Assembly: GCA_003222395.1 (NCBI GenBank)
Contig: QHWB01000032.1
Location: 62,001-126,000, forward strand
DNA length: 64,000 nt
Reading direction: 5' to 3'
From: Acidobacteriota bacterium
GTDB taxonomy: Bacteria; Acidobacteriota; Vicinamibacteria; Vicinamibacterales; CAVVIG01
Positions within the stretch are counted from its first letter, which is position 1; each line of letters opens with the position of its first letter. Shown here piece by piece: positions 40,807-48,431 of the stretch. The notes beneath the pieces were generated by a model. That model was not told the DNA's origin. It did not search any database and saw nothing but the letters and a program-made list of their open reading frames with translations. Position numbers and translations under genes: made by a program.

Positions 40807-41610
40807 TCAGTGTAGCGAAGCCTGCACATACGACGCGAGCCGCACCACTTCCAGCCGAGGCTCGCGCGCGACGAGCACGAACGTGCGGTTGCCCACGCAC
40901 CAGATCGCCGCCTCGTGGCCGAGCACTTCGACGAACTGCTGGGCGCGCGCGGCGTTCGGCAGCATGAACACCGAGACCGGCCGTCCTTCGTGACGGTACA
41001 TGATGTGGGCAATCTTGCCTTCACCGTAGAGGCAGGGACGCGCGCCGACGAGCTCGAGCCCGACTCTCGCCGCGTCCTGCGGCAGATGCGCCTGCCATCC
41101 GAAGCCCGACACCATCGCGCTTTCGACCGTCGAGGGCTGCTCGTGCGTGCCGAGCATCGCGTTCATCGCGAAGCACTTCATGTGGTCCGCCGTCAGCTCG
41201 GCCGCCAGCACGCGCGCTGACGAGTCCGTGAGCTGATAGAGGAACGCGCCGCCGACCATGACGACGAGCGATGCCGCGAGCGCGAAGGGCACGGCGCGCG
41301 CGCGCCAGGCCGCGAGGTTGAAGAAAACGCTTCGGCGGACCGCCGGAGCCTTGGCGAAGGCGGTCAGGCGAGCGTCTGTCGATCGCGCCGCCTCCGCGCA
41401 TCGCGCGCGCAGCGCGGGCGGCGCGGACCGCGATTCGAGCGCCGGACGATGGTCGCGAATCAGCGCGCGCACGGCGCGTTCGGCGGCGACGCGCGAGTGG
41501 CACGGCGGGCATCGGTGCACGTGTTCGTCGACGTTGCGCCGATCGGTCTCGGCGAGCTCGCCGTCGACGTATGGGGTGACGAGCGGATCGATGGTTTTAC
41601 AGTCAGGCAT
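40807..41610 (-). CDS. Anti-sigma factor with zinc-finger (zf-HC2) and one membrane segment
   Basis: The 267-aa protein starts with the ZAS motif ([31 protein letters not shown]), which binds the paired sigma factor. A single helix ([17 protein letters not shown]) crosses the membrane. The periplasmic part holds Cys residues ([22 protein letters not shown]) and may sense redox or envelope state. The start overlaps the sigma gene by 8 bp, the usual sigma/anti-sigma coupling. Confidence 0.9.
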
Positions 41611-42169
41611 TGACAGGCCGCAGGTGATTCAGGCGCTCGAACAACAAATGTCTGCCGCGCGAGATGCGCGACATGACGGTGCCAATCGGAATCGACAGCA
41701 TCTCCGCGATTTCGGCGTACGAAAACTCTTCCACGTCGCGTAACCACACCGCCTGGCGGAACACGAGGGGCAGCTCGTCAATCGCCGCCTGCAGCTCCGG
41801 CGCGAGCGTCTCGCGCAGCAGCAGCGTCTCCGGCGTTTCGTAGGGGCCGCCGGCGGAGAACCCTCCCGGTCCCTGTTCGGCGGCGCGATCGACGAGCTCG
41901 CTGTCGATCGCGACGGCGTCGCGGGCCCGATCGCGGGCGCGGTTGCGGGCGGAGTTGTGGAGAATCGTGAACAACCAGGCTCTCAGGTTCGTGCCGGGCT
42001 CGAACTGACCGGCGGATCGGAACGCCTTGAGATACGTTTCCTGCACGAGATCTTCGGCGTCGGCCGGCACCCGCGTCAGCCGCAGCGCGGTGCGATAGAG
42101 GCTGTCGAGCGCCTGGAGCGCTTCGGCCTCGAATGCAGGCGACACCGCACGTAAACCCTTTCGGGCCAT
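41603..42169 (-). CDS. ECF-type RNA polymerase sigma factor
   Basis: The 188-aa protein has region 2 ([38 protein letters not shown]) and region 4 ([40 protein letters not shown]). It fits the SigW/RpoE-like ECF group controlled by a ZAS anti-sigma factor, encoded next. The thioredoxin gene downstream may belong to its regulon. No matching ECF promoter could be assigned by eye. Confidence 0.92.
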
Positions 42170-42497
42170 GGTTTATTCCCACCTTCGCTCGCCTTCGGCG
42201 ACCTTCCGGCGGGCAAGCCCCTTTCTGCCTTCGCTCGCCTTTCGGGGCGAGCAAGCCCTCGTGCTTATCGGCTTGCGACCTTCGGCGTGGCAAGCCTTCC
42301 TGAATGCGGCTTCGCGAGCGTGAGCGGGAGGCGCACTCAGTATAGCGTTGTCATAGGCGTTGTCGCCCGAAAAGGTCGGCGCGCGCGCCCGGGAGAGGAC
42401 AGAACACGTGAAAGAAGCCTGAATCGCCGAGCATGCGGTTTGCAGACACGTCGGCGTCAACAGTAAGATCGCCCGACACTTTTCGAGGTATCTGCTT
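42170..42497. repeat. Repeat-rich intergenic region
   Basis: The 328-bp space has no credible gene. 42185-42305 carries several short palindromes: GCTCGCCTTTCGGGGCGAGC is a perfect hairpin, and CTTGCGACCTTCGGCGTGGC belongs to a similar CTTGC...GCAAG stem. 42430-42497 holds the promoter of the next gene. Confidence 0.55.
42440..42469 (+). promoter_or_regulatory. Sigma-70-like promoter for the peptidase-propeller-barrel gene
   Basis: TTGCAG (42440-42445), 18-bp spacer, TAAGAT (42464-42469). The expected transcript starts about 20 nt before the ATG, with GAGG at 42485-42488 as ribosome site. This gene is therefore not of the leaderless type. Confidence 0.45.
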
Positions 42498-45400
42498 ATG
42501 CGCACGCGCGTGCCGCTGTTGTCCCCTGCCTTCGCTGCCTCCGCGCTCCTCGCCGCGATCGTCGTGACCGGCGGCGCGACGCCGGCGGGCGCGCAGACGT
42601 CGCTGGTCCCCTATTTCGGCAAGAACAACATCCACTACGACAAGTTCAAGTGGATGATCTACACCACCGATCACTTCGAGATTTATTACTACCCCGAGAT
42701 CGAGCAGCACCTGGAGCGGGTCGCCGGCTACGCCGAGAGCGCGTATCAGCAGATCAGCGCCGATCTCAAACACGATCTCTCCTTCAAAGTGCCGCTGATG
42801 CTGTTCAAGACGCACAGCGAGTTCGAGCAGCAGAACGTCGCGGGCCCCGACGCCTCGTCGGAAGGCGTCGCGGCGTTCGCCGAGCCGACGAGAGATCGCA
42901 TGCTGCTGCCGATCGACGAGCCGCCCGACCAGCTGTACGGCCTCATTACGCACGAGCTGACGCACATCTTCGAGTTCGACATCATCCCGCAGTCGCTCAT
43001 CCGCCGCAGCGTGCCGCTGTGGGTGAACGAAGGGCTGTCGGACTACGAGCGCGCGCAGTGGAATCCGATCGATCTCATGTCGGTGCGCGACGCGGCGGTC
43101 GCCGACATCGTGCCGAAGATGACCGAGCTCGAAGGCTACGGCAACACGAACAACCCGAGACTCATCTACAACCTCGGTCACGCGGTCTTCGAGTTCATCG
43201 AGGCGAAGTACGGGAAGGAAGGCATCCGCCAGTTCCTGTTCGCGCTGCGCAAGAGCGTCATCGGCGGCGGCGAGGACGCGTACGAAGAAGCGCTCCGCAT
43301 GAAGAAGGACGAGTTCGATCAGGCCTTCGAGCGCTATCTGAAGGATCGGTTCAAGCCGTTCCGCGACAAGGAGCGGCCGGCCGACTACGGCCGCGATCTC
43401 TCGCCGAACCGCGAGAAGACCAATTACGCCGACGCCTTCACGATCGCGCCGTCGCCCTCGGGCGATCTGATGGCGATCGCGACCGTGAATCGAAAAGACC
43501 GCGAGCTCGACGTGATCCTGCTGTCGACCAAGGACGGCTCGATCGTCCGCAACCTCACGCGCGGCTTCGACAAGGACATGGGCTTCGATCACATCGTCTT
43601 CATGGGCGAGCGGTTCGAGATGCCGTGGATGGCGTGGTCGCCGAGGGGCGACCGGCTCGCGTACTTCGTGCGCACCGAGAAGGAGCGGACGCTCATCGTC
43701 CAGAACGTGCTCACGCGCGAGGTCGAGCTGCGGATCCCGATGGCGACGGTCGACGAGCCCGAGTCGCCGAACTTCTCGCCCGACGGCCGGACGATTGTGT
43801 TCGACGCGCTGCGCGGCGGCGTCGGCGATATCTATACGATCGATCTGCAGTCGAAGGCGATCATCAATCTGACCGACGACAAGTTCTCCGACGCGGCGCC
43901 GGTGTACTCGCTCGACGGCACGTACATCGTCTACAACGTGCGCGTCAGCGGCAACAACAAGCTGTGGCGGCTCGACGTCGACACCAAGAAGAAGACGCAG
44001 CTCACCTTCGGCACGCAGGACGAGACCGCCGCGCAGTTCATCGACGATCACACGATCGTGTTCTCGTCGACGGCGACCGATCCGGCGGTGCCGCTCGAGC
44101 CCGACGTCGCGCGCAACGGCAACATCTACAACATCTGGACGCTCGATCTGAAGTCGGGCGAGCTGCGGCAGTACACCGACGCGCTCGGCGGCAACTGGTC
44201 GCCGGTCGTGCTGAACGACGGCAAGTCGAACCGGATCGCGTTCATCAGCTACTACAAGGGCGAGTACAGCATCCACACGCTCGAGCGGAAGGAGCCGCTG
44301 CACACGGCCGCGAGCGCCGACTTCGGCGCGCCGACCGAAGTCATCGACTTCCAGGCGCCGCTGCAGCACACACTGGTGAAGGAGAACATCCGCAAGAAGG
44401 GCACCTTCGAGAAGATGTTCCTCGAGGGGCGCCCGCCGATTAACGTCGGCGTGACGAGCAACGGCGACATCTTCGGCGGATCGCAGGTGAGCTTCGGCGA
44501 CATGACCGGCGATCAGCAGATCAATCTGTTCGCCGCGTCGATCTCGCAGTACCGCACGCTGTCGCTCTCCTACGTGAACCTGTCGAGCCGCTTCCAGTGG
44601 GCGTTGCAGGGGTACTCGCAGACGGTGTTCTTCTACGGCTCGCTCGGCGGCGTCTTCTTCGATCCGTCGTACTCGCCGTTCATCAGCCGCGACCTGGCGA
44701 TCGCGACGCGGACGATCCGCGGCGGCAGCGCGATCGGCATCTACCCGCTCGATCGCTACCGCCGCCTCGAGCTGTCGGGCGGCCTGCTCCAGTTGAACGA
44801 GGAGTACAACGATCCGGGGCTGCAGCAGCAGGCCGAAGCCTACCAGGCGGCGACGTTCGGCCAGGCGGTGTTCCGCAACGGCACGCTGATGCCGCTCGGC
44901 GCGGCGTTCGTCCAGGAGACGACCATCTTCCGCGAGTTCGGACCGCTCGCGGGCAATACGATGCGGCTCGCCTACGACGCGTCGCCGAAGATCGGATCGA
45001 TGCTTTCGCGCCAGACCTTCGATGCCGACGTCCGCCACTACCTGCGGCTCGGCGGATCGGGCCTGCTCGCGACGCGGTTCCGCGGATTCAAGAGCAAGGG
45101 CGACTTCCCCGACTTCCTGTACTTCGGCGGCAACTCCGAGCTGCGCGGCTACAACTACCTCGAGTTCGCCGGCCAGAACACGGTGTTCGCCGACGCGGAG
45201 CTGCGCTTCCCGCTCATCGAGGCGGCGCTGACGCCCATCGGCGTCATCGGCGGCATTCGCGGCGTCTTCTTCGCGGGCGTCGGCGGCGCGTGGTTCGATC
45301 ATCAGCCGTCGGGCGACACGTGCAGCGGCGGCGGTTACAGGTTCGCGACGAGCAGCTCCGAGATCTGCAGGCCGATCACCGGGTATCAGGTCGACTCGCA

Positions 45401-45665
45401 GGGCAACCCACTGACGGATCTGGCGGGCACTCCGGTACTCACCTATGGCCCGGCGCGCAACATCAGCGGCTTCCGTCTGAAGGACGGGCGTGCCTCGTAC
45501 GGCATCGGCCTCGAGACGTTCGCGCTCGGCTTCCCCATCCACTTCGACTGGGCGTGGCGCACGCTGTTCAACAAGGACTGGGAAGACGTGCTGTTCGCGA
45601 CGCAGGGCGGCAGCTCCAACTTCCGCAAGCCGCGCTTCGCTGTTTGGATTGGATACGACTTCTGA
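42498..45665 (+). CDS. Fusion of HExxH peptidase, TolB-like propeller and BamA-type outer-membrane barrel
   Basis: The 1055-aa protein has three parts after a signal peptide (to about ATPAGAQ). Residues ~40-285 form a gluzincin-like domain: ITHELTHIFEFD (His152-Glu153-His156) and WVNEGLSDYE with Glu178 as third ligand. Residues ~310-640 hold PD40/TolB beta-propeller units (SPSGDLMAIATVNRKD, PNFSPDGRTIVFDALRGG, APVYSLDGTYIVYN). The rest is an Omp85/BamA-type barrel with FGGNSELRGYNYLEFAG and a terminal Phe (WIGYDF). It would sit in the outer membrane with the peptidase and propeller on one face. The substrate is unknown. Confidence 0.9.
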   Translation: MRTRVPLLSPAFAASALLAAIVVTGGATPAGAQTSLVPYFGKNNIHYDKFKWMIYTTDHFEIYYYPEIEQHLERVAGYAESAYQQISADLKHDLSFKVPLMLFKTHSEFEQQNVAGPDASSEGVAAFAEPTRDRMLLPIDEPPDQLYGLITHELTHIFEFDIIPQSLIRRSVPLWVNEGLSDYERAQWNPIDLMSVRDAAVADIVPKMTELEGYGNTNNPRLIYNLGHAVFEFIEAKYGKEGIRQFLFALRKSVIGGGEDAYEEALRMKKDEFDQAFERYLKDRFKPFRDKERPADYGRDLSPNREKTNYADAFTIAPSPSGDLMAIATVNRKDRELDVILLSTKDGSIVRNLTRGFDKDMGFDHIVFMGERFEMPWMAWSPRGDRLAYFVRTEKERTLIVQNVLTREVELRIPMATVDEPESPNFSPDGRTIVFDALRGGVGDIYTIDLQSKAIINLTDDKFSDAAPVYSLDGTYIVYNVRVSGNNKLWRLDVDTKKKTQLTFGTQDETAAQFIDDHTIVFSSTATDPAVPLEPDVARNGNIYNIWTLDLKSGELRQYTDALGGNWSPVVLNDGKSNRIAFISYYKGEYSIHTLERKEPLHTAASADFGAPTEVIDFQAPLQHTLVKENIRKKGTFEKMFLEGRPPINVGVTSNGDIFGGSQVSFGDMTGDQQINLFAASISQYRTLSLSYVNLSSRFQWALQGYSQTVFFYGSLGGVFFDPSYSPFISRDLAIATRTIRGGSAIGIYPLDRYRRLELSGGLLQLNEEYNDPGLQQQAEAYQAATFGQAVFRNGTLMPLGAAFVQETTIFREFGPLAGNTMRLAYDASPKIGSMLSRQTFDADVRHYLRLGGSGLLATRFRGFKSKGDFPDFLYFGGNSELRGYNYLEFAGQNTVFADAELRFPLIEAALTPIGVIGGIRGVFFAGVGGAWFDHQPSGDTCSGGGYRFATSSSEICRPITGYQVDSQGNPLTDLAGTPVLTYGPARNISGFRLKDGRASYGIGLETFALGFPIHFDWAWRTLFNKDWEDVLFATQGGSSNFRKPRFAVWIGYDF

Positions 45666-45673
45666 CACGTAAA

Positions 45674-46793: not shown

Positions 46794-48302
46794 CTACGAT
46801 ACGTTCTTCAGCCTCAGCATCGCGTGCTCGAGATCGATCGCGACGCGGTACTTGCTGAGGAACTTGTGGCCGACGATGCCCCCGAGCTGGAAGCCAAGCA
46901 GCGCGCTCGGCGCATCCAGATTCAGGACGACCACCGGAAAGTTCTTGTACTGAATCGTGTCGAACGACAGATCGATTCCCGGCAGCAGGAAGGCGTCCTC
47001 GTCCCAGCCCGACGTCCCGTACACCTTCAGCGCAATCTTGCGTCCCATTGGCGGCCGGTTCAGCGACGACGCCGTGGCCTGGCTGATTGAAATCACTTCG
47101 CCGCCCGTATCCACCACGAAGTTCGCGTTGTGATCGCGATCGACGATGCCGCGCACCGTCGCGAGGCGATAAATCCGCAGCGGCAGCTCGAAGTCCGCCG
47201 CCTCGACCGGCACGTGCTTGCCGAAGGTGAGCTTGTGGTTCTTGTAGTCGATGATCATCGAGTAGCCGAGCGCGAGCGGCGACAGGCTCTCGGTTTCTTT
47301 CACCGGGATGTCGCGCAGCGGCGGGTTCTTGATGAGCACCGGCACGTTGCGCAGCTTGAGCGATCCGAGCTCCAGTGAGTCGATGCGTGCGAGCTGCAGC
47401 CCGCGCAGGCCGACGCGTCCGACGCCGGCGCTCAGCGTATAGGTGATCGGCGTGATGCCGAGACGCTGCGCGGTCGTCCGCGTGATGACGGTGTTCTCCG
47501 ATCCGGTGTCGACGACGAAGTCCTGCGCCGACGCGTCGTTCACCTTCGCGCGAACGACGACCTTCTCGTTGACCAGCCGGAAGTCGATGGTGAACACGCG
47601 ATCCTCCACGCCCGGATCGGTTTCGAACGGCTGTTTCTGGCCGAACGATCGCAGGAAGCGGATCTCCGCGCGCGACCAGTCGGCTTTCTCGCTGTGATCC
47701 TTGTTCGGCAGCAGGTTCACGTAGTTCGAGTACGCCGCCGCCGCCTCTTCGTACTTGTGCTGACGTTCGAAGATGGTGCCGACCGTGTGGTGAATCTCGA
47801 GGTCACGCGGCGACATTCGCAGCGCCGCCTGCACTTCGTTGAGCGCATCGTCGAGCCGCCCGCGCGCGGCGAGCGATTTCGCCATGCCATGATGGCCGCG
47901 CGCGAGCTCAGGCGCCGCGCCGAGCGCGTCGCGATACTCGGCCTCGGCTTCCTCGAAGAGGCCGGCCGACCATAGCGCATCGCCGTACAGCGCCATCGAG
48001 TCCGGGCTCTTCGGGTCGCTCTGATTGAGCTTCTCGGCTTCCTTGCGCGCCAGGTCGAACTCCGCGACGCGGAGCGCCGAAGCAATGAGGCCGACGCGCG
48101 GCCGCTTCGCCCGGTCCTGCGGCGACGTCCGCAGCGCGTTCTTGTAGGCTTCGAGGGAATCGCTGTACCGCCCTTCGGAGTACAAAAGGTCGCCCAGCTG
48201 AAGCTGTATTTCGAATGACTGCGTCTGAACGTCGGCGCGGATGACGAAAGAGGCCGCCGCGATCAGAACCGCCGCCGCGGCGAATCGAATGCCGCTTTGC
48301 AT
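46794..48302 (-). CDS. TPR protein with two retropepsin-like aspartyl protease domains
   Basis: The 502-aa protein has a signal peptide (MQSGIRFAAAAVLIAAASFV). TPR units follow (QLQLGDLLYSEGRYSDSLEA, MALYGDALWSAGLFEEAEAE, TVGTIFERQHKYEEAAAAYS), then two clan-AA domains. The first has DFVVDTGSENTVI and a hydrophobic glycine late motif (LALGYSMIID). The second has NFVVDTGGEVIS and GGIVGHKFLSKY. Two DTG motifs in one chain could form a pseudo-dimer like pepsin. The start is fixed by AGGGG and the signal peptide. Confidence 0.9.
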   Translation of the reverse strand: MQSGIRFAAAAVLIAAASFVIRADVQTQSFEIQLQLGDLLYSEGRYSDSLEAYKNALRTSPQDRAKRPRVGLIASALRVAEFDLARKEAEKLNQSDPKSPDSMALYGDALWSAGLFEEAEAEYRDALGAAPELARGHHGMAKSLAARGRLDDALNEVQAALRMSPRDLEIHHTVGTIFERQHKYEEAAAAYSNYVNLLPNKDHSEKADWSRAEIRFLRSFGQKQPFETDPGVEDRVFTIDFRLVNEKVVVRAKVNDASAQDFVVDTGSENTVITRTTAQRLGITPITYTLSAGVGRVGLRGLQLARIDSLELGSLKLRNVPVLIKNPPLRDIPVKETESLSPLALGYSMIIDYKNHKLTFGKHVPVEAADFELPLRIYRLATVRGIVDRDHNANFVVDTGGEVISISQATASSLNRPPMGRKIALKVYGTSGWDEDAFLLPGIDLSFDTIQYKNFPVVVLNLDAPSALLGFQLGGIVGHKFLSKYRVAIDLEHAMLRLKNVS

Positions 48303-48431
48303 GACCCCTCCAGGAAGACGTGCGAATCCGGACCGCCGTATTACAAGAACCGGGCCGTTACCCGGCTGCACACGAACCATAGTTTACGCGGGGGCAGCTT
48401 TCAAGAACCGAAAAGAACGGCGAAAACCGTG

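Follow-up and report, generated by a model that had tools for sequence, protein, structure and literature searches.

Zinc peptidase, TolB-like propeller and BamA-like barrel joined in one predicted outer-membrane protein of the Acidobacteriota

Introduction

A gene of the Acidobacteriota combines, in a single chain, parts that recall three normally separate machines of envelope quality control (Bam, Tol and BepA/M48), and the question that it raises is what such a protein is and what it might do. The gene lies in a window of 64,000 nucleotides (contig QHWB01000032.1, order Vicinamibacterales), for which a first-pass annotation had proposed a gluzincin domain with a HELTH motif, a TolB-like propeller and an Omp85-type barrel, expressed from their own promoter and serving as a 'self-contained' outer-membrane protease or assembly device.

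Part of this architecture has already been described. WD40-Omp85, named in 2014 as a subfamily of the Omp85/TpsB superfamily, has a TolB-like propeller ahead of a POTRA-less Omp85 barrel, and was seen by its authors as a BamA-BamB-like fusion (Heinz and Lithgow 2014, PMC4104836). The main text of that paper does not mention an N-terminal zinc peptidase for these proteins, and the subfamily that it terms 'Metallo' carries a different domain, PF00149. Judged by the published description, the protein considered here belongs to WD40-Omp85, with which it has in common the POTRA-less barrel and an N-terminal propeller closest to TolB, and to which it adds a zinc peptidase. It is thus a variant of an already named subfamily and not a categorically new system; the propeller-barrel fusion is the one that Heinz and Lithgow describe, and the same proteins may well lie within their 2014 set. 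The open-access literature, which is only part of all literature, yielded no paper on the triple architecture, and domain databases may list it already.

Hanson et al. (PMC11116518) count the WD40-like and metalloprotease branches among the Omp85 proteins that still lack good characterisation. The gain here is an apparently intact N-terminal zinc peptidase, found in acidobacterial members of a branch of the Omp85 proteins that is still poorly understood. A studied comparison is the patatin-Omp85 protein PlpD, in which an enzyme domain is likewise fused ahead of an Omp85 barrel and stays in the periplasm (PMC11116518); PlpD, however, has a patatin lipase and POTRA where the present protein has a peptidase and a propeller.

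Domain composition

The features of the locus are collected in Table 1. The reading frame opens with ATG and runs without interruption for 1055 amino acids, so that all three domains are carried by one polypeptide. By eye, its first residues read as a signal peptide with a basic n-region, a hydrophobic core and a site of the AGA-Q type near residue 32; A32 and Q33 are invariant in the alignment. An antisense frame of 1105 amino acids (42351-45668, minus strand) that spans the whole gene was set aside as a GC-rich shadow, because in several orthologues (L018, L020, L021, L024 and L028) stop codons cut the frames of that strand short.

Table 1. Features of the locus, in window coordinates
Feature	Position	Strand	Basis
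Complete gene (1055 aa) for peptidase, TolB-like propeller and Omp85 barrel	42498-45665	+	ORF, orthologues, AlphaFold model
Signal peptide, residues 1-33	42498-42596	+	Read from sequence by eye
Zinc peptidase domain, residues ~48-296	42639-43385	+	Domain model, fold matches, invariant catalytic residues
HELTH motif, residues 152-156	42951-42965	+	Invariant H152, E153, H156
TolB-type beta-propeller, residues ~305-605	43410-44312	+	TIGR02800, PD40, TolB structures
Omp85-type 16-strand barrel, residues ~646-1055; RGY (883-885), ELRFP, C-terminal F	44433-45662	+	Strand count, folds, Omp85 match, motifs
Conserved block upstream of the gene: TTTGCAG and TAAGAT, some 18 bases apart; CGAGGTA before ATG	42442-42497	+	Aligned upstream regions of 16 orthologues
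Divergent ECF sigma factor gene	41603-42169	-	Sigma70_r2/r4_2; present at most order loci
zf-HC2 anti-sigma-like gene	40807-41610	-	zf-HC2 2.6e-9; conserved with sigma gene
TPR protein with retroviral-type aspartyl protease domains	46794-48380	-	Convergent neighbour, conserved in most of order

The full-length AlphaFold model (mean pLDDT 80.4, pTM 0.69; low confidence at residues 1-47 and 114-124) lays out a mostly helical domain at 48-296, a propeller at 305-605 and 16 barrel strands between about 648 and 1051. Domain searches and structure prediction, which had been suggested as checks on the first-pass annotation, recovered each of its three domains, the peptidase and the barrel most clearly by fold.

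The propeller is readily recognised from its sequence, which matches Pfam PD40 (2.6e-6, over the cut-off, and in 31 of 31 family members), solved TolB chains (4.6e-13) and the TolB model TIGR02800 (2e-23), the last with 83 bits against an equivalog cut-off of 343, short of the score expected of a full-length TolB. At model level, residues 322-601 superpose on TolB structures with a Z of about 26 (rmsd 2.4, 245 residues aligned). Fold and sequence similarity are thus common to both, whereas TolB is a separate periplasmic protein.

The barrel gives weak matches in single-sequence searches (0.0039 for the NCBIfam model Omp85_fam) and passes the Pfam Omp85 cut-off of 24 bits in a genome search, with 29.6 bits. 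Its modelled fold is a true Omp85 fold and not an unrelated one: residues from about 645 to 1055 match BamA, TamA and Sam50 with Z scores of 21-22 (rmsd 3.6-4.7, about 300 aligned), the 16 strands are those of the Omp85/TpsB superfamily, and the RG(F/Y) motif of loop 6 is present as RGY. Together with the ELRFP motif, this is what the barrel shares with BamA, TamA and Sam50; POTRA domains, in contrast, were not found by Pfam, and the propeller and peptidase occupy the region where BamA has them. Among 70 scored sequences, R903 is kept in all, and R883 and E901 in 69 each.

The peptidase domain

For the N-terminal domain, sequence and structure speak with different force. The Pfam family Peptidase_MA_2 is matched at 18 bits, under its gathering cut-off of 32.4, although it recurs at E values up to 0.1 in 29 of 31 family members. 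Modelled alone (pLDDT 82.8, pTM 0.82), the domain resembles M9 collagenases (Z 14-16.8, with about 235 residues aligned at an rmsd of about 4), the M30 peptidase lugdulysin (Z 15.2) and, at Z 12-13, M1 aminopeptidases, with about 10-16% identity over the structural alignments. Among the matches listed, the modelled fold is closest to these M9, M30 and M1 gluzincins, with which it shares the HExxH motif and the downstream Glu and Tyr; those enzymes are not barrel-fused. M48 peptidases gave no sequence match in Pfam and are absent from the fold matches listed, an absence that does not exclude M48. The likeness to Bam and Tol drawn in the first-pass annotation stands, in that barrel and propeller are BamA-like and TolB-like by fold, while the kinship to M48 and BepA is not supported by these matches; BepA, an outer-membrane quality-control protease of family M48, is retained as a comparison of possible working only.

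The catalytic elements are those of clan MA. HELTH supplies H152, the motif glutamate E153 and H156, and is followed by PLW(175)VNE178G in the usual gluzincin layout, with E178 as the putative downstream glutamate ligand of zinc on a gluzincin fold. The spacing from E153 to Y224 is 71 residues and resembles that between the positions altered in the lugdulysin catalytic mutant E242Q Y315F (73 residues), which makes Y224 a candidate catalytic tyrosine.

Wherever an orthologue record includes this domain (some records are duplicated between two collections), these five residues are unchanged, as they are in two paralogues. They are kept as well in each of the 74 further homologues, out of 75, that could be scored, a protein of Salinibacter included; the remaining one (L082) was misaligned in scoring, and its translation reads HEFTH ... 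WQIEGLATYEE. Fold and residues agree, then, on the proposed HELTH gluzincin, and no scorable homologue has lost its HExxH motif. The peptidase is also the most conserved part of the protein, with a median identity of 0.79 (0.63 for the propeller and 0.65 for the barrel). An inactive peptidase fold, kept as a scaffold, would account for the low Pfam score; set against the invariance of all five predicted catalytic residues across the phylum, it is barely credible, and the architecture is probably catalytically active. With these residues unchanged in every homologue scored, the question of function can be reduced to a single point mutation, at E153.

Distribution and relatives

An orthologue, either full-length or cut by the end of a contig, is found in 38 of 40 related genomes (the genome of origin being one of them), and 123 of 247 sampled Acidobacteriota genomes hold a match at 1e-20 or better. 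Full-length identity of 56-81% across the order, combined with the invariant catalytic residues, rules out a chance assembly, and judged by these comparisons the architecture is conserved throughout its order and widespread in the phylum. Identity falls from about 50% within the class to about 33-44% within the phylum, a gradient consistent with vertical descent.

The genome of origin encodes three further copies of the same architecture, on contigs C34 (L002), C92 (L003) and C118 (L082), at 29% identity or less. The last of them (L082, 588-4052, minus strand) is a fourth, very divergent peptidase-propeller-Omp85 protein, which adjoins a mutS-like gene and which hhalign relates to the family with 99% probability over 769 columns. 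Separate BamA-like, TamA-like, TolB and M48 genes are present in the same genome, the better TolB candidate (319.8 bits) lying on C118. Replacement of the separate Bam, Tol and M48 machines was therefore rejected: the protein is an extra device, and the description of it as 'self-contained' is not borne out. TolB-profile matches in this genome number 66, which makes for a large number of TolB-like propeller stretches.

A tree of the peptidase-propeller part resolves two old groups, one of which holds the gene described here and the other L002, L003 and the Salinibacter protein. The latter was met through the plasmids in a search that covered Acidobacteriota genomes and plasmids; it is a protein of 633 amino acids encoded by plasmid pSR116 of Salinibacter ruber (Rhodothermota; L081, 4932-6833), annotated as 'basic secretory protein-like', 43% identical to L002 and composed of peptidase and propeller without a barrel. 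The peptidase-propeller unit thus exists alone, and the barrel may be read as its anchor or partner. This points to an enzymatic core able to function on its own and to a barrel that localises it.

Possible functions

We consider it somewhat more probable than all other outcomes together (roughly 0.55) that the protein is an outer-membrane-anchored periplasmic zinc endopeptidase with a docking propeller. The signal peptide would direct its export to the periplasm, and the barrel at the C-terminus would insert into the outer membrane; the propeller and peptidase would come to lie on the periplasmic side, because the barrel is even-stranded and the other domains stand ahead of strand 1. The propeller may then dock substrates or envelope partners, and we infer that the peptidase would cleave client proteins of the periplasm or outer membrane in the manner usual for gluzincins, with H152, H156 and E178 holding zinc, E153 acting as the base and Y224 stabilising the transition state. 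The invariant catalytic residues, the standing of the peptidase as the most conserved domain and fold matches with Z up to 16.8 all argue for an anchored protease of this kind, as do the barrel-less protein of Salinibacter and the precedent of PlpD, whose enzyme domain is periplasmic (PMC11116518). The sub-threshold Pfam match of the peptidase and the two low-confidence segments of the model count against it.

So does the conservation of R883, E901 and R903 in the barrel, which goes beyond what a bare anchor would need. In the main rival reading the barrel itself acts as an Omp85 protein: the chain might be an accessory factor for assembly or translocation at the outer membrane, in which the propeller takes the place of POTRA/BamB as the platform for substrates or partners and an attached editing protease trims or rejects clients in passage. 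Such a role, which Heinz and Lithgow (PMC4104836) propose for WD40-Omp85, accords with the true Omp85 fold and the conserved RGY and ELRFP motifs, and every Omp85 protein studied before PlpD was an assembly or translocation protein (PMC11116518); but with no POTRA domain found by Pfam, BamA and TamA-like genes already in the genome, a barrel less conserved than the peptidase and a relative in Salinibacter that lacks the barrel altogether, we regard it as unlikely. Rather less likely still is that these proteins form a core, phylum-wide class of outer-membrane machines, each of them with an active periplasmic protease built permanently onto an insertase-type Omp85 barrel, so that client assembly and destruction meet in one chain.

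Export of the protein's own peptidase and propeller, for display on or release from the cell and proteolysis of nutrients, would fit the secreted collagenases that are its closest folds among the matches listed. Acidobacteria in soil live on polymers. Yet passage of two folded domains, of about 560 amino acids, through a 16-strand barrel is implausible, and PlpD, once thought to act in this manner, does not (PMC11116518); the odds for self-export are accordingly long.

Upstream region and neighbouring genes

Within the conserved block upstream of the gene, TTTGCAG and TAAGAT have a sigma-70-like spacing and form a putative promoter, while CGAGGTA would be the ribosome-binding site. A promoter of its own, as annotated at first pass, is thus plausible for the gene.

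The divergently adjacent sigma/anti-sigma pair, conserved at most loci of the order, invites the idea that the protein is a protease which senses stress and, by cleaving the zf-HC2 anti-sigma factor, frees the ECF sigma factor. Several members of the order (L027, L028, L033, L036 and L064-L067) have no match to an adjacent pair, however, and the sequence GGAATAA-N16-GTTTAC, a candidate self-recognised promoter of the sigma gene, has a single occurrence in the genome of 7.7 Mb, at that gene, whereas the peptidase gene has the sigma-70-like block instead; such a circuit is very improbable. Since the sigma-side motif is confined to the sigma gene, control of the peptidase gene by the neighbouring sigma factor is likewise unsupported. 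The reading frame of the sigma gene (41603-42180, minus strand) has its first ATG between the conserved GGAATAA and GTTTAC elements, and its translation probably begins at a GTG farther inside the frame. On the other side, beyond the gene for the TPR protein with aspartyl protease domains, lie genes for complex I-type subunits, which are conserved neighbours within the order.
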